From contig PCVX01000058.1 of assembly GCA_002796105.1 (NCBI GenBank), positions 4,970-42,487 of the forward strand: a stretch of DNA of 37,518 nucleotides, read 5' to 3'. A model generated the notes under the pieces. It saw nothing but the letters and a program-made list of their open reading frames with translations. It searched no databases and was not told where the DNA came from. Each line of letters starts with the position of its first letter. Position 1 is the first letter of the stretch. Of the stretch, positions 23,514-31,670 are shown one piece after another. Source of the DNA: Candidatus Omnitrophica bacterium CG11_big_fil_rev_8_21_14_0_20_63_9. Its GTDB lineage: Bacteria; Omnitrophota; Gorgyraeia; Aquiviventales; Aquiviventaceae. The position numbers were made by a program, and so were the translations under genes.

Positions 23514-23526
23514 GCCGCACGCCCCC

Positions 23527-23556
23527 TTGCCGTTTGCGCAAGCGATCAGGCATACT
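23527..23556 (+). promoter_or_regulatory. Promoter of the first leader RNA
   Basis: -35 TTGCCG (23527-23532), 18-bp spacer, -10 CATACT (23551-23556), predicted +1 at G23563. The -10 is embedded in CAGGCATACT, which is identical in the second leader promoter at 29354-29363 with the same 18-bp spacing. TTGCGCAA (23534-23541), a palindrome, lies in the spacer. Confidence 0.6.
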
Positions 23557-23562
23557 CGTGTT

Positions 23563-23683
23563 GTACGAGTGTTTCCCGGAGCCTCCTGAGGCCGGATCGT
23601 CCGGATTGCACGGTGACGATCAGCGGCGCTCAGGGCGGGATCGACCGGGCTACCGAATACGGTGGCTCGGTTTCTCTTTTTTT
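23563..23683 (+). ncRNA. Structured leader RNA, copy 1 (candidate riboswitch or sRNA)
   Basis: The predicted transcript starts GTACGAG and folds as follows. P1 is CCTGAG (23585-23590) with CTCAGG (23629-23634). P2 is GATCGTC (23595-23601) with GACGATC (23615-23621), closing a 13-nt loop. The internal loop is 4 nt on the 5' side and 7 nt on the 3' side. An intrinsic terminator follows, then the RBS and ATG of the coiled-coil kinase-like gene. Length to the T-run is about 120 nt. A second copy with the same layout is at 29371-29488. It does not match the TPP, c-di-GMP-I or other riboswitch consensus I know. Either an attenuating cis-regulator or an independent sRNA. Confidence 0.6.
23644..23683 (+). 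terminator. Intrinsic terminator after leader RNA copy 1
   Basis: ACCGGGCTACCG (23644-23655) pairs with CGGTGGCTCGGT (23660-23671) over 12 bp including two G-U pairs, with loop AATA, followed by TTTCTCTTTTTTT. It lies upstream of ATG 23704, so it either ends the leader conditionally or ends an sRNA. Confidence 0.85.
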
Positions 23684-23703
23684 CGGCCTGGAGTGTGAAG
23701 CAC

Positions 23704-26700
23704 ATGAGACGCGGACGCACCGCCAGCTCGGCTTTGGATCGGCTGTACCATCCGCTGCGATTGGGCAAGCCTTTGGAACACCCCGAGGCGGCCGCACAGG
23801 CCGCCCATCTGCTCTATTGGTGGGTGCGCGGCATCATCGTCGGAACGGTGTTGTTCGGGATCGCCGCCGTGGTGCTGGGAGCCCCGCACGCGTGGTCTTC
23901 GTTGCAGCTCACCATTTCGCTGTGCCTCTTCGGATTGCTCTGGGCCTATGGCCTGGCCTGGGTCTCGCATCAGCCCGGGCTCTTACGGCATGTGCAGCCG
24001 CTGTTGTGGGTGAACAGCATCGGGCTGCTCGGGCTGATCACGCTGATGATCGGCACGACGGGTGCTGCGACCAGCCCGGTCGCGTGGCTGTACTTCGCGC
24101 TGACGACCGCCGATCTGGTCTGCGACCGGCGACGGGGTGTGGTCGTGGCGTGGCTGTCCTTTGCCTTGATGGTTGGGGTGATGGTGACGCACGGCGTGCT
24201 GGGAGAGCCGTACGGTGGGCTGCAGGGTGTGAGCGTCGCCGGCTGGTATCTGATCGCCGGCGCGGCCGCGACCCTGCTGGCCCGCTGGTCGATTCGCCAT
24301 GAGCGCACGCTGGCTGTGCGCGCACAGCAATTGCACGAACAGGAAGCGTCCTTGACGTCGGACCACGCCAGGCTGCAGGCGGAGCAGCAGCAGATCGGCC
24401 AACGGCTATTTCAACTTGACCAGGCCAGGCGGCAATTTGATGCCGCGCAGGAGAAATCGCAGCGGGAACAGCAGCAAGCGGAGTTGCAGCGCGCCCAGGC
24501 CGCGCAGCACCTTGCGGATCAGGAGGCCGCCCTGGCCGAACGGATACGGCAAGTGGAAGAGCGCTCTGGGGCGCTCCAAACGCTTCAGCAGCAGTTCGAG
24601 GAAGAGCGCAAGGGGGTGGAGTCCCAGCGCCTGCGGACGGTACGCCTCCTCGATGAGCGTGAAGCAGGGATCGCTGAGCGCCATCGCGAGCTGGGTGAGG
24701 CGAAGCGCCAATTCGAGGCCCAGCGCACTCAGACCACCCAGTCGCTGGTGCAGCTGGAGCAGACGCTGCTTGGCGGCCTCAAGCGCGTCAGCGCGGATAT
24801 GGCGCAAGTGGAGGCGAAGCGCGCGGAGTGCGAGACGGCTGCGCGGGAGCTTGCCGCCGCGCGGGCGCACTGGGAAGCGGAGCAAGCCGGCGCGGATCAT
24901 GCGCTGCGCGCCCGCGAAGAAGAGGTCGCCGCCCGCCAAGAAGATCTCGGCCGCGCGCAGGAGACGCTGATCCAGGAACAGGCGCGCGCCCGCCGCGAGC
25001 TGGAAACGCAGGCCGACGCCGCCGTCGCACGCGCCGCAGAGCTTGAGGCGCGCGCTCGCGAACTGGCCGAGCGCGAGCGGACGGTGGCCACCGATGAGAC
25101 GCAGCGCCACTCGACGCTCGAAGAAGCCCGGCATCAATTAGCCCAGCGGGAAGCCGATCTGGCCGCGCGGGAGGATGCCGTGCGCCAGCAGCTGGCGGCA
25201 TGCGCCACACAGCAAGAGCAGTGTGATGCCGCAGCGCGTGACGCGAAGCAGCAGTCCGACACGCTTGGGACGCAGCGCGCCGCCCTGGAGACCCAGCAGG
25301 CGGCGCTTGAGCAAGAACAACAGCGGTTTGTGGAGGAACTCGCCCAGCGCGAGCGCGCCTTGCAGGAGCGGGCTCAGCAACTCCAGACGCAGCAGGCCGA
25401 ATGGGAAGCCACGCATCGCGCGCTGGTCGCCAAGACCGAAGAACTTGAAACGCAGCGGCGCGCGCTGACGGAAGAGCGCGAGCAATGGGAGCGGCAGCGC
25501 CGACGGACCGACGGGCTGTTGGGGTTTTCCCGCGGGTTCTTCATGCAGCACGCCCGCCGCGCGCTGCAGGCCCAGGCCAAGAAGCTGCGCGAGCAGCATC
25601 GGCAATTGGCGACGGTCCAGCGGGAGCTGTCGATGCGCGAGCAGCAGCTGCAGCAGCAGTCGCTGGAAGGCACGCGGACCGCCCACGAGCTGCAAGCGGC
25701 CCAGCACGCGTTTGAGACGGAGCGGCAGCGGATGCTCGAGCAGCTCCGCCAGCGCGAGATCGCCTTGGCCGAGCGGCTCCAGCAAGTCGGCGAAACCGAG
25801 CACCGGCTCTCAGGCGCCAAGACCGAGCTCTTGCAGCAGCGCGACCAATTGGAAGCATCCCAGCGCAGCCACCAGGCTGAGCGCCAGGCCGCCGAGCAGG
25901 CGGGCGCCAAAGACGTGCGCCGGCTCCAGCAAGAGCTCGAGACGCTGCAGCGCGCGCTGGCGCAGCGGGAGCTGTCCAGCGACGCGGCCGCCCGGCAATG
26001 GGACCACACCAAGCACGAGTTGGAAGAAGCGCTCACCGTGCGGGAACGGGAACTCGACGCGCAGCGCCGCGCATTGGCCGTTCAGCAAGACGAGCTCGTG
26101 CAAGCGCACCGGCAGTGGGAGCGGTCGCATGCCGCTGCGGGGCAGGAGACGACGCAGCACACCCGCAAGCTTGCCGAACAGACCAAAGCGTTGGATGACC
26201 GGCACCGCAAGCTCCAGGCGCTTCAAGCGCAGCTTGAGGAGCAGCGCGCCCAACTGGAGCACCAGCAACAGCACATGACCCAGCAATCGGCGCGGCACGA
26301 ACAAGAGCTGTCCGTGCGGCTGCAACAAGTTGAGGTGCTGCAGCGCCAACTCGAAGATGAGCGCGCCGGGATGGAGCGCCAGCGGGAGCAGGTGGAGATC
26401 AGCCGGCGCCAGCTCCAGATGGAGCAGCAACAGCTCGAAGCCTCGCGCCAACAGCTGCATGACACCCGGCGGCGTCTCGCGGAAGCCTCGGTGGCCGCGG
26501 ATATGCCGGACCGTTTCTCCTCAGAGACGCTGACGCTGCTCGCCAACGAATTGAACGTGCCGCTGGCCAGTATGCACACGCTGCTGTGCGGCGTGATGGA
26601 AGGGGATCACGGCGAGCTGCCGGCGCCGTTGCGCGAAGCGCTGCAACAGATGGGGACCGCGCAGGGTCGCCTACGGCGCATCGTCATCGATGCGCTCGAT

Positions 26701-27246
26701 GTGGCACGCATCGATCATGGACAGCTCTCGGTGTCGCTGCAGAAAACCACGCTCCAGGAGGCGCTCGATCGGGCGGTGGCGGACATCCAGTCGCCGCTTG
26801 CGCGCAAAGGACTCTCGCTCTCCCGACAAGGTTCGGAAGCGATGGCGATCGCCGTCGACCCCGGCCACTTCCATCGGATCCTCTCCACGCTGTTGAGCAA
26901 TGCGGTGGAGTACACGGAGCAGGGTGGCATCACGATTCTCTGCGCACAACAGCAACACCGCGTCGTCATCACCGTGACGGACACCGGCATCGGCATTCAG
27001 CCGGAGCACATCGGTTCCTTGTTCGCCCGTCCCAAGCTGGGCGCGCTCCTGCACGGCAAGGGCATCAGCTTGTACGTGGCCCGCGGGCTGGCCAAGCTGA
27101 TGGGCGGAGAGTTGTCGCTTGCCTCCAGCGAGCCGGGGACGGGCAGCGCGTTTACCGTGACCTTTCCTCTGGCGGTGCCCGATCCATCGGGACGGACCGC
27201 CGGGGACGCCTCGCCGACCACAGCGACCACCGTGACGGAAACGTGA
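23704..27246 (+). CDS. Six-TM, long coiled-coil histidine-kinase-like protein lacking the phospho-His
   Basis: This is a 1180-aa protein. Residues about 35-195 contain six hydrophobic helices (LLYWWVRGIIVGTVLFGIAA ... GWYLIAGAAATLLARW). Residues about 200-930 are an unbroken Glu/Gln/Arg/Ala coiled coil, roughly 100 nm if fully extended. The C-terminus is a kinase core: a dimerisation helix aligned to FLAxMSHExRTPL but reading LLANELNVPLAS, so Asn948 replaces the phospho-acceptor His. The ATPase domain keeps LLSNAVEYT (N box), DTGIGI (G1) and GKGISL (altered G2). ATG 23704 has TGGAG upstream; GTG 23662 is inside the terminator and is rejected. It overlaps the degenerate receiver (TGATG). Probably a structural or scaffold sensor, not a normal phosphodonor. 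Confidence 0.9.
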   Translation: MRRGRTASSALDRLYHPLRLGKPLEHPEAAAQAAHLLYWWVRGIIVGTVLFGIAAVVLGAPHAWSSLQLTISLCLFGLLWAYGLAWVSHQPGLLRHVQPLLWVNSIGLLGLITLMIGTTGAATSPVAWLYFALTTADLVCDRRRGVVVAWLSFALMVGVMVTHGVLGEPYGGLQGVSVAGWYLIAGAAATLLARWSIRHERTLAVRAQQLHEQEASLTSDHARLQAEQQQIGQRLFQLDQARRQFDAAQEKSQREQQQAELQRAQAAQHLADQEAALAERIRQVEERSGALQTLQQQFEEERKGVESQRLRTVRLLDEREAGIAERHRELGEAKRQFEAQRTQTTQSLVQLEQTLLGGLKRVSADMAQVEAKRAECETAARELAAARAHWEAEQAGADHALRAREEEVAARQEDLGRAQETLIQEQARARRELETQADAAVARAAELEARARELAERERTVATDETQRHSTLEEARHQLAQREADLAAREDAVRQQLAACATQQEQCDAAARDAKQQSDTLGTQRAALETQQAALEQEQQRFVEELAQRERALQERAQQLQTQQAEWEATHRALVAKTEELETQRRALTEEREQWERQRRRTDGLLGFSRGFFMQHARRALQAQAKKLREQHRQLATVQRELSMREQQLQQQSLEGTRTAHELQAAQHAFETERQRMLEQLRQREIALAERLQQVGETEHRLSGAKTELLQQRDQLEASQRSHQAERQAAEQAGAKDVRRLQQELETLQRALAQRELSSDAAARQWDHTKHELEEALTVRERELDAQRRALAVQQDELVQAHRQWERSHAAAGQETTQHTRKLAEQTKALDDRHRKLQALQAQLEEQRAQLEHQQQHMTQQSARHEQELSVRLQQVEVLQRQLEDERAGMERQREQVEISRRQLQMEQQQLEASRQQLHDTRRRLAEASVAADMPDRFSSETLTLLANELNVPLASMHTLLCGVMEGDHGELPAPLREALQQMGTAQGRLRRIVIDALDVARIDHGQLSVSLQKTTLQEALDRAVADIQSPLARKGLSLSRQGSEAMAIAVDPGHFHRILSTLLSNAVEYTEQGGITILCAQQQHRVVITVTDTGIGIQPEHIGSLFARPKLGALLHGKGISLYVARGLAKLMGGELSLASSEPGTGSAFTVTFPLAVPDPSGRTAGDASPTTATTVTET

Positions 27247-27665
27247 TGGCGAAAATTTTCCTGCTGACCCACGATGCGCTGCTCGCTTCAGCCTACACGA
27301 TGCGCCTGCGCCGCGCCGGGTTCGAGGTCGCGCATCAGGCGACCGCGCAAAGCGGGCTCGCCAAGGCGCGCCAGTGGATGCCGGATGTCATCCTCCTCGA
27401 TTTACATTTGCCGGGCATGGACGGGCTGCAAGTGCTGAAGCTGCTGCGCGACGTGCCGTGGCTTGTGAAAGTCCCGGTCGTACTGTTGATCGACCGGACG
27501 ACGACGCGGGATATCCTGGACCAGTGCCTGCTGTGGGGCGCCGGGAGCTACCTACCCAAAGATGACTGCTCGTTGGCCGCGCTGCTTGCGCACGTCCGGC
27601 ACCTCGCTCCCGAGGGCGCGTCGAGCGTCTCGCCATCCGCACCCGGCGCGCCTGCCGGCTCCTGA
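27246..27665 (+). CDS. Degenerate receiver-domain protein
   Basis: This 139-aa receiver domain has a Ser/Pro/Ala tail. The phospho-Asp site D52 (ILLDLHLPG) and Lys105 (YLPKDD) are present. The first acidic position is changed: LLTHDALL has His9-Asp10 instead of Asp-Asp. The usual switch Thr/Ser region reads VVLLIDRT. Mg binding and phosphorylation may therefore be weakened. It overlaps the stop of the pseudo-kinase gene (TGATG), so the two altered partners probably act together. Confidence 0.88.
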   Translation: MAKIFLLTHDALLASAYTMRLRRAGFEVAHQATAQSGLAKARQWMPDVILLDLHLPGMDGLQVLKLLRDVPWLVKVPVVLLIDRTTTRDILDQCLLWGAGSYLPKDDCSLAALLAHVRHLAPEGASSVSPSAPGAPAGS

Positions 27666-29321: not shown

Positions 29322-29333
29322 AAATCCTGTCTC

Positions 29334-29363
29334 TTGCCCCGGGCGGGCGCTGTCAGGCATACT
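29334..29363 (+). promoter_or_regulatory. Promoter of the second leader RNA
   Basis: -35 TTGCCC (29334-29339), 18-bp spacer, -10 CATACT (29358-29363), predicted +1 at G29371. Same hexamer type, spacing and CAGGCATACT context as the promoter at 23527-23556. Confidence 0.6.
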
Positions 29364-29370
29364 GGTTCTA

Positions 29371-29488
29371 GTACGATTCGGTCCCTCTTGAACCTGGATC
29401 GCCGCACGACCCGCAGGGCGATCGGCAGCGTTCGAGGAGGTTCACCGAGCCGCTCGTGATGCACGAGCCGCTCGGTGTTTTTGTTTTT
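29371..29488 (+). ncRNA. Structured leader RNA, copy 2 (candidate riboswitch or sRNA)
   Basis: The predicted transcript starts GTACGA. P1 is CCTC-TT-GAAC (29384-29393) pairing with GTTC-GAGG (29430-29437), with a TT bulge. P2 is GATCGCC (29397-29403) with GGCGATC (29417-29423), closing a 13-nt loop. Internal loop sides are 3 and 6 nt. Compared with copy 1, one P2 pair changes T-A to C-G with both sides altered, a compensatory change. A 15/16-bp terminator hairpin follows before the RBS of the metalloprotease gene. About 118 nt in total. Confidence 0.6.
29443..29488 (+). terminator. Intrinsic terminator after leader RNA copy 2
   Basis: CACCGAGCCGCTCGTG (29443-29458) pairs with CACGAGCCGCTCGGTG (29462-29477) at 15 of 16 positions, loop ATG, followed by TTTTTGTTTTT. 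It lies 32 nt before the ATG of the metalloprotease. Confidence 0.9.
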
Positions 29489-29519: not shown

Positions 29520-31670
29520 ATGAGCCGACGGATCGAGGGATGGCGGCAGGGAGCGGCGGTGGGCTTATGCGCGTTTGGGATTGCGATGACCGGGCCGGGC
29601 GCTGGCGCTGAGGTGCGCGAGGAGCTGCGGCTGCACACGGATGGCCTCTTGCAAGCCGGCGGCCAGTATCACCGGATCCCGGCAGGACAGCGCCCGAAAG
29701 CACTTGAGCGCATGCGCGCCACGGCCGAGCGCCGCAAAGCGATGCTCTTGCAGGATGCCAGCGCTGACCCCGAACGATTCTTGCGCCACGCGCTCCCGAA
29801 GGAGGCGCGTCAGCGGCTGCCGCGTCCCGTGCATTCGTTGGTGGAGGAGGAAGTGGAGCTTGAGGGCGAGGTAACCGCGCTGCAGGTGGATGATTTTACC
29901 GGCCACGGCGAGCTGATCTACCAGTTGCGCAGCGCGCAGACCGGCGACAAACGCTTGCGCCTGCGTTTTGCCAAGGGAGAAGCGCCATGGCTAACCGGCG
30001 CACGCATCAAGGTACGGGGTGTGGCGCTGGGTTCCGAGCTGGTCGTGGCGGAAGCGGGCGGCAGCAGCGCTCAAACCATCGCGGCCGCTCCGACGATGAT
30101 CAGCGGCGACCAGCGCACCATCGTGATGCTCATCAACTTCACCAACGACACCCAGCAGCCGTGGAGCCCGGCCTCGGTCCACGATGCGATGTTCAATGCC
30201 GCAAGCTCCGTCAACCGGTTTTATCAGGATGTCTCCTTCGGCAACCTCAGTTTGTCCGGCGACGTCGTGGGCTGGTTCACGATCCCCCTGGATAACAGCG
30301 GCTGCAACTATAACGGGTGGGCCAATGCCGCCGACTCCGCGGCGACTGCGGCTGGCGTGTCGCTTGGCAACTACCAGCGGCGCGTGTATCTCTTTCCGCG
30401 CACAGGCAGCTGCGGGTGGGCAGGGCTGGGGACGATCGGCGGCAATCCCTCGCGGGCCTGGAGCAACGGCTACAACGACTACCGGCTCTTCGCGCATGAG
30501 CTGGGGCACAACCTCGGCGCGCACCATGCATCAACGCTTAGTTGCGGCGGCAGCGCCATCGGCGCCTCCGGGGCCTGTACCACCAGCGAGTATGGCGATG
30601 CCTTTGATGTGATGGGTTTCTGGAATCTCTTCCAATGGAACGGACCGCATAAAGTTGGGGCGGGGTGGCTGTCAGGAAGCCGCGTGCAAACGGTCACCGG
30701 TGGGGGCCTGTTTACCCTCACGCCGCTGGAGCTGGACCAAAACACCCCGCAGGTCTTGAAGATCAACCGGCCGAACACCTCCGAGGCGTACTACGTGGCG
30801 TACCGGCAGCCTCTTGGCATGGACGGCGGCTTGCCCTCGGGCATGACGCAGGGCGTGAGCGTGCATGTGTGGAGTGCTAACGCCGCCGCGGTGCAGACGA
30901 AATTGTTGGATACCAGCCCTGGCGACGGGTTCCAGAATGCGGCGCTGTCAGATGGCGGGACGTTCAACGATGCGGCGAACAACATCACGGTGAAACAGCT
31001 CAGTCATGGCGGGAGCGCAGCGACCGTAGAAGTGTCGTTCGGCTCAGCCCCCTGCACGCGCGCAACGCCTAGCGTGAACCTTACGCCGATCAGCCAGGCC
31101 GGTTCGCCAGGGGAGACCGTCTCCTACGCCGTCTCCATCACCAACCACGACGGCAGCAACTGCAACAGCGGGGTATTCGCCCTGACGCCGGTGCTGCCCA
31201 ACGGGTGGTCAGGAACGCTGTCGGTTTCTTCGTTCAGCCTGGCGCCTGGAGCGACCGGGACCTCGACGTGGGACGTCGCCTCGGCTGCCGGCACGACCGA
31301 CGGCAGCTACCCGCTCAGCCTGCAGGTGGGCGATGGCGCGATGGTGGAGCATACCGCTGCGGTAGCGGCCACGTATGTGGTAATGACGGACGGTACGCCG
31401 CCGACAGTCACCATCACGCATCCAAAACCTGGCGCCAGGGTCGAGCGCCGTCCACAGATCAACGTCACCGCGATCGATGAAAGCGGCATCGCCCGCGTGG
31501 ACATGTTGATCGATGGCGTCGTCATATTCTCGGACGCGAAGCCTCCCTTCCGCCATCGTGTCAGCAAGCTGGACCGGCTCGAGCGCGGCCGGCAGGTCGT
31601 CATTAGCGCAAAGGCTATCGACAATGCGGGCAATGAAGCCATCGCCTCGGTGACGGTGACGGTCAAATAA
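29520..31670 (+). CDS. Secreted gametolysin-like (M11-type) metalloprotease with Ig-like domains
   Basis: This 716-aa protein has a likely signal peptide at the N-terminus (basic start, then AAVGLCAFGIAMTGPGAGA). A propeptide-like region of about 150 residues follows. The catalytic domain has the metzincin zinc motif HELGHNLGAHH (H326, E327, H330, H336) and a Met-turn in DVMGFW. The segment NDTQQPWSPASV...SVNRFYQDVSFGNLSLSG is typical of the gametolysin family. Two C-terminal beta domains follow: a NEW3/CARDB-like one (about 515-625) and an Ig-like one (PPTVTITHPKPG ... to the end) that would bind surfaces. Structured RNA and a terminator precede it. Predicted extracellular protease. Confidence 0.9.
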   Translation: MSRRIEGWRQGAAVGLCAFGIAMTGPGAGAEVREELRLHTDGLLQAGGQYHRIPAGQRPKALERMRATAERRKAMLLQDASADPERFLRHALPKEARQRLPRPVHSLVEEEVELEGEVTALQVDDFTGHGELIYQLRSAQTGDKRLRLRFAKGEAPWLTGARIKVRGVALGSELVVAEAGGSSAQTIAAAPTMISGDQRTIVMLINFTNDTQQPWSPASVHDAMFNAASSVNRFYQDVSFGNLSLSGDVVGWFTIPLDNSGCNYNGWANAADSAATAAGVSLGNYQRRVYLFPRTGSCGWAGLGTIGGNPSRAWSNGYNDYRLFAHELGHNLGAHHASTLSCGGSAIGASGACTTSEYGDAFDVMGFWNLFQWNGPHKVGAGWLSGSRVQTVTGGGLFTLTPLELDQNTPQVLKINRPNTSEAYYVAYRQPLGMDGGLPSGMTQGVSVHVWSANAAAVQTKLLDTSPGDGFQNAALSDGGTFNDAANNITVKQLSHGGSAATVEVSFGSAPCTRATPSVNLTPISQAGSPGETVSYAVSITNHDGSNCNSGVFALTPVLPNGWSGTLSVSSFSLAPGATGTSTWDVASAAGTTDGSYPLSLQVGDGAMVEHTAAVAATYVVMTDGTPPTVTITHPKPGARVERRPQINVTAIDESGIARVDMLIDGVVIFSDAKPPFRHRVSKLDRLERGRQVVISAKAIDNAGNEAIASVTVTVK

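Follow-up and report, generated by a model that had tools for sequence, protein, structure and literature searches.

A bulged-hairpin leader RNA in the place of c-di-GMP-I riboswitches, probably a new regulatory switch in one bacterial family

The analyzed stretch of 37,518 nt (hereafter the window), whose host is a draft genome of 1.86 Mb and 84% completeness, carries a short structured segment ahead of a gene for a 1180-aa protein, which a preliminary description had proposed as a cis-regulatory RNA. We asked whether this segment is indeed a new RNA and, if so, whether it governs the gene behind it. Its promoter, TTGCCG-N18-CATACT (23527–23556, plus strand), can be read directly in the sequence as described, with the -35 element TTGCCG at 23527–23532, a spacer of 18 nt and the -10 element CATACT at 23551–23556, and it contains the 11-mer TCAGGCATACT at 23546–23556. 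The 5′ leader (23563–23584, plus strand) would begin 7 nt past the -10 element, a position at which G or A is found in most of the 82 TCAGGCATACT promoters that we aligned. It leads into a core hairpin (23585–23634, plus strand) with a loop of 13 nt and helices of 6, 4 and 7 bp: the outer helix pairs CCTGAG (23585–23590) with CTCAGG (23629–23634), the middle helix GCCG (23591–23594) with CGGC (23624–23627) and the inner helix GATCGTC (23595–23601) with GACGATC (23615–23621). Both bulges, AG (2 nt, 23622–23623) and G (1 nt, 23628), lie on the 3′ strand. The two helices P1 and P2 and the apical loop named at the outset are thus present, with the GCCG/CGGC helix stacked between them. An intrinsic terminator follows (23643–23683, plus strand) with a T-rich run, as had been claimed, behind a stem at 23643–23672 in which we count 13 bp instead of 12. 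In its full extent the RNA spans 23526–23684 and the ATG of the 1180-aa gene stands at 23704, which bears out its placement between promoter and gene. The folding z-score is -3.86, and none of 200 shuffled sequences was equally stable.

The same arrangement occurs once more in the window as a repeat 5807 nt downstream (29333–29488). This second copy possesses a promoter of the form TTGCCC-N18-CATACT (29334–29363, plus strand; TCAGGCATACT at 29353–29363, CATACT at 29358–29363), a core hairpin with helices and bulges as in copy 1 (29387–29436, plus strand) and an intrinsic terminator (29443–29488 including the T run, plus strand). Its folding z-score of -3.08 is, as for copy 1, far better than that of shuffles. 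A second copy 5.8 kb away with a compensatory change in P2 had been noted before; both the copy and the change in P2 hold, but compensatory pairs are found in all three helices.

A comparison of both copies with Rfam 15 at gathering and at permissive E-values returned chance matches only, far below threshold, in agreement with the proposal of an undescribed RNA; no Rfam 15 family came close to its gathering score. In the collection of papers that we searched, none joined Omnitrophota with a riboswitch or mentioned c-di-GMP-III together with a riboswitch. Related genomes do contain homologues, as a search with a covariance model built from the two window copies alone revealed: a third copy (E 2e-6) is present in G005, a genome from the same family but a different genus, where promoter element and bulges are as in the window copies and a terminator and then a start codon follow. 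The two-copy model detected no third copy in the window's own genome, where the next best match had an E-value of 2.7. A sensitive scan of 27 family genomes with a three-sequence model yielded a fourth member (G007, E 0.008), whose locus likewise has terminator and start codon and whose 59 bits in the final core model are by construction, as it was included in that model. Refined models together with inspection added a fifth member (G003), which reaches only 17 bits but has the same promoter and the same architecture. The RNA is thus known from five loci in four genera of the bacterial family, two of them with weak scores. Since no further significant match came from samples of 384 genomes each for the class and the phylum, the RNA seems to be confined to one bacterial family, as far as the sampled class and phylum show. 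Matches in G024, G043, G088 and G221 were discarded as chance because they are without terminator or leader context, and the same judgement was made for eight matches of a degenerate pattern in viral contigs, none of which exceeded 17 bits.

Covariation was examined over the 17 pairs of the core hairpin. Copy 1, copy 2 and the G005 copy alone already exhibit several two-sided changes. In the alignment of four members, which was not fitted to the structure, 7 of the 17 pairs have changed on both sides and 94% of the cells pair, although members were chosen partly by structure and the statistic hence leans upward. Shuffled alignments contained on average 3.1 two-sided pairs and none of 500 reached seven; sliding the partner by 1–3 columns left at most one. 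Addition of G003 by hand raises the count to 9 of 17 pairs in five members. Among the letters of the core, TGA and TC of the outer helix, ATC/GAT of the inner helix and the RG bulge vary least. The apical loop shows no conservation, ranging from 8 to 17 nt with varying sequence.

Unexpectedly, the promoter element proved to be much more widespread than the RNA. We counted 83 occurrences of the 11-mer TCAGGCATACT in the 27 family genomes, compared with three of a reversed control, and a gapless alignment of 82 sites uncovers CTTGACG 13 nt upstream, giving CTTGACG-N13-TCAGGCATACT. This spacing identifies a promoter of the sigma-70-like type, in which an extended conserved block precedes the -10 element. 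CAGGCATACT was rejected as a marker of the new RNA alone, being a general promoter element.

At least 46 of the 82 TCAGGCATACT sites run directly into a c-di-GMP-I riboswitch, where 20 of 40 loci were called at Rfam's own thresholds and the remainder with a profile built from those. A terminator was detectable in 35 of the 46 c-di-GMP-I leaders versus 6 of the 36 other leaders by a script that is incomplete and overlooked, for instance, the hairpin and T run of locus L126; the new RNA accounts for four of these six. The association also appears from the opposite direction: when c-di-GMP-I riboswitches are picked by their aptamer alone, their promoters frequently take the form TTGAC-N13-TCRGGYATAST, and one of these matches the promoter element of G007, TCGGGTATAGT, exactly. 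The riboswitch is abundant in this bacterial family, as all 27 family genomes (G000–G026) contain c-di-GMP-I matches, between 1 and 25 each. The new RNA is thus found in the position of a c-di-GMP-I leader, with the same promoter, a terminator and the same spacing before the start codon. The resemblance to this class (GEMM-I; RF01051, RF03167 and RF03168) comprises the promoter class, the place between promoter and start codon, the terminator behind the sensor RNA and the extracellular or surface genes downstream, all within the same bacterial family. In contrast, the new core is one bulged hairpin devoid of the two helices, tetraloop and receptor of the aptamer and has no sequence or structure match to it; the aptamer model (RF01051 and subfamilies) matched none of the five loci.

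Three further leaders deserve mention. A c-di-GMP-I leader of G020 (L042:1502–1601, minus strand), with a subtilase gene downstream, can form a hairpin that resembles the new core at 26.7 bits; the aptamer contributes its 3′ half to this hairpin, and its 3′ end is also complementary to the 3′ arm of the terminator. We did not count this match as a member because the riboswitch overlaps it. The leaders L126 (282–420) and L093 share the promoter and a terminator-like hairpin and lack a full c-di-GMP-I match, of which L093 retains just a 3′ remnant; both are possibly degenerate or other sensor RNAs.

All five members are placed in a closely similar manner relative to a gene. Measured from core start to terminator end, all five loci span 77–90 nt, and a further 31–42 nt separate the terminator end from the ATG of a gene on the same strand. 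Core and terminator are 6–12 nt apart and do not overlap. Upstream, the core of three members starts 25–36 nt past the -10 element. In G007 and G003 this interval is 114–116 nt; about 115 nt of unrelated leader precede the core there and the leaders measure about 200 nt. A small leader peptide was rejected as an explanation, as the open frames of the five leaders have no peptide in common.

The genes behind these leaders mostly encode exported proteins. Copy 2 precedes a gene for a secreted M11-type metallopeptidase of 716 aa with NPCBM_assoc and Big_7 domains (29520–31670, plus strand), and the downstream genes of G005, G007 and G003 encode a cohesin and Glucodextran_B/Big_7 protein, a PcRGLX-type protein and a Pel9A-like beta-helix protein, respectively. 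The G007 and G003 products resemble pectin-degrading enzymes, and exoproteins with signal peptides, as judged by eye, are encoded by four of the five genes. The gene under copy 1 (23704–27246, plus strand) encodes a membrane and coiled-coil protein with a C-terminal HATPase_c domain. This protein has a long coiled coil and no recognized HisKA domain, and the search of named genomes for its relatives gave weak, partial matches only. A response-regulator receiver gene comes next (about 27243–27665). The label 'pseudo-kinase' given to the 1180-aa protein in the preliminary description is only weakly grounded, with HATPase_c but no recognized HisKA, and the response-regulator gene next to it.

Taken together, the data support a new cis-regulatory RNA. 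The sequence itself shows its structure, covariation, homologues, fixed position, promoter class and downstream genes. A covarying structured domain lies upstream of a terminator and a gene, and since the RNA is placed between promoter and gene, ends in a terminator and occupies the slot of a known riboswitch, we read it as a cis-acting leader that is most likely a riboswitch-like transcription attenuator, a reading in which we have reasonable though limited confidence. Because it sits where a c-di-GMP switch is usual, it probably represents an on/off switch of a new kind that acts mostly on genes for secreted enzymes. Filling the c-di-GMP-I slot behind the same promoter, it is likely to take part in the same surface and exoprotein programme through another sensor; its sensing function we infer by this reasoning. 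RNA polymerase would start at a promoter of the TTGAC-N13-TCAGGCATACT type, synthesize the bulged core hairpin and then meet a strong intrinsic terminator about 30–40 nt ahead of the start codon. As long as the proper signal is missing, transcription would mostly end there and yield RNAs of roughly 120 nt (about 200 nt in two relatives). A ligand, either a small molecule or a protein, might engage the conserved bulged core and change the chance of termination, by which the downstream gene would be made or shut off; either direction is conceivable. Transcription from the promoter, premature termination and signal-dependent read-through would thus be the three processes at work.

How the core might communicate with the terminator was addressed by folding of the nascent RNA, which in all five members suggests that the 5′ leader could pair with the 5′ arm of the terminator in a helix that encloses the core. 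As an antiterminator this helix found no support: shuffled leaders formed duplexes as strong (fraction 0.13–0.39), and in a swap test the native set of leader–terminator combinations ranked 77 of 120. Since the fold failed both tests, the switching step is one that we can only infer. Counting against the attenuator are also the separation of core and terminator, the roughly 115 nt of unrelated leader in G007 and G003 and the number of members, five with two weakly scoring. As to what might be sensed, we tentatively put forward a new riboswitch class, confined to this uncultivated bacterial family, that responds to c-di-GMP or a signal related to it, or else to a polysaccharide breakdown product, and that shares the promoter class of c-di-GMP-I, an idea that may well prove wrong.

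A version of the attenuator that we regard as somewhat unlikely assigns the decision between termination and read-through to a core-binding protein, which could be an RNA-binding antiterminator or could control its own message. The core is a single simple hairpin in which the most constant parts flank a purine bulge, as is typical of protein sites, and exoenzyme genes elsewhere are classic targets of antitermination proteins. However, the RAT hairpin of the BglG/SacY/LicT system, which as a bulged hairpin close upstream of a terminator in exoenzyme and sugar gene leaders otherwise resembles the new RNA, overlaps the 5′ strand of its terminator. The new core lies 6–12 nt away from the terminator and a competing fold is unsupported; by this lack of overlap it differs from RAT-type antiterminators. 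ANTAR-regulated leaders also have a hairpin and a terminator upstream of the regulated gene, but in the form of paired hairpins with six-base loops, while the new RNA has a single hairpin with loops of 8–17 nt.

The preliminary description had left open whether the segment is a riboswitch-like attenuator or a small RNA family. A free-standing sRNA of roughly 120 nt, pairing with messages or binding a protein and having the gene merely as a neighbor, would explain the compact unit of own promoter, hairpin and strong terminator as well as the unsupported alternative fold, and two copies per genome are common among sRNA families. We nevertheless consider it improbable. The constant short distance to a start codon on the same strand at all five loci makes an independent sRNA less likely and offers little room for another promoter; moreover, the slot normally holds a riboswitch, two members reside within leaders of about 200 nt and the apical loop is not conserved. 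Of the two possibilities the cis-regulatory attenuator is hence favored by the distance to the ATG and the c-di-GMP-I slot.

Descent from a decayed or rebuilt c-di-GMP-I leader, which lost its aptamer and kept an alternative hairpin and the terminator, appears very unlikely. Promoter and slot are shared, and the core-like hairpin of the true c-di-GMP-I leader in G020 draws on the 3′ half of the aptamer, but the core is absent from the other c-di-GMP-I leaders examined, decay would not preserve covarying helices and bulges across genera, and Rfam finds no residual aptamer at the five loci. An ordinary insulated terminator that stops upstream read-through and senses nothing would fit the strong terminators and the unsupported alternative fold, yet in the order promoter–core–terminator–ATG it would block the gene's own promoter and would need no separate hairpin with conserved bulges, so that we give it hardly any credence.

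The riboswitch-like attenuator resembles in kind the orphan riboswitch candidates obtained by comparative genomics (e.g. PMC7266159, PMC2864571), which share the conserved covarying leader structure, the terminator and a ligand yet to be assigned, and from which the new RNA differs in its far narrower distribution, in one family, and its very few members. If our reading is correct, these bacteria control exoenzyme genes via a single dedicated promoter class whose RNA sensors are interchangeable, as this one promoter type would feed mostly c-di-GMP-I and, in a few leaders, the undescribed RNA. As the usual sensor of the slot is known, a comparison of c-di-GMP with related molecules offers a direct test for the signal of the new RNA. 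It would also represent a new regulatory RNA with known gene context in a lineage that is represented here almost only by draft assemblies.

The promoter CTTGACG-N13-TCAGGCATACT, possibly the site of a dedicated sigma factor or activator, also drives prepilin-like, PilT-like, MinD-like and response-regulator genes with short leaders. At the loci L090, L089, L122, L124 and L151, short leaders at a TCAGGCATACT-type promoter are followed by genes for small exported proteins, which share the motif 'PIEQLP.DVV.WST.W' and form a conserved family.
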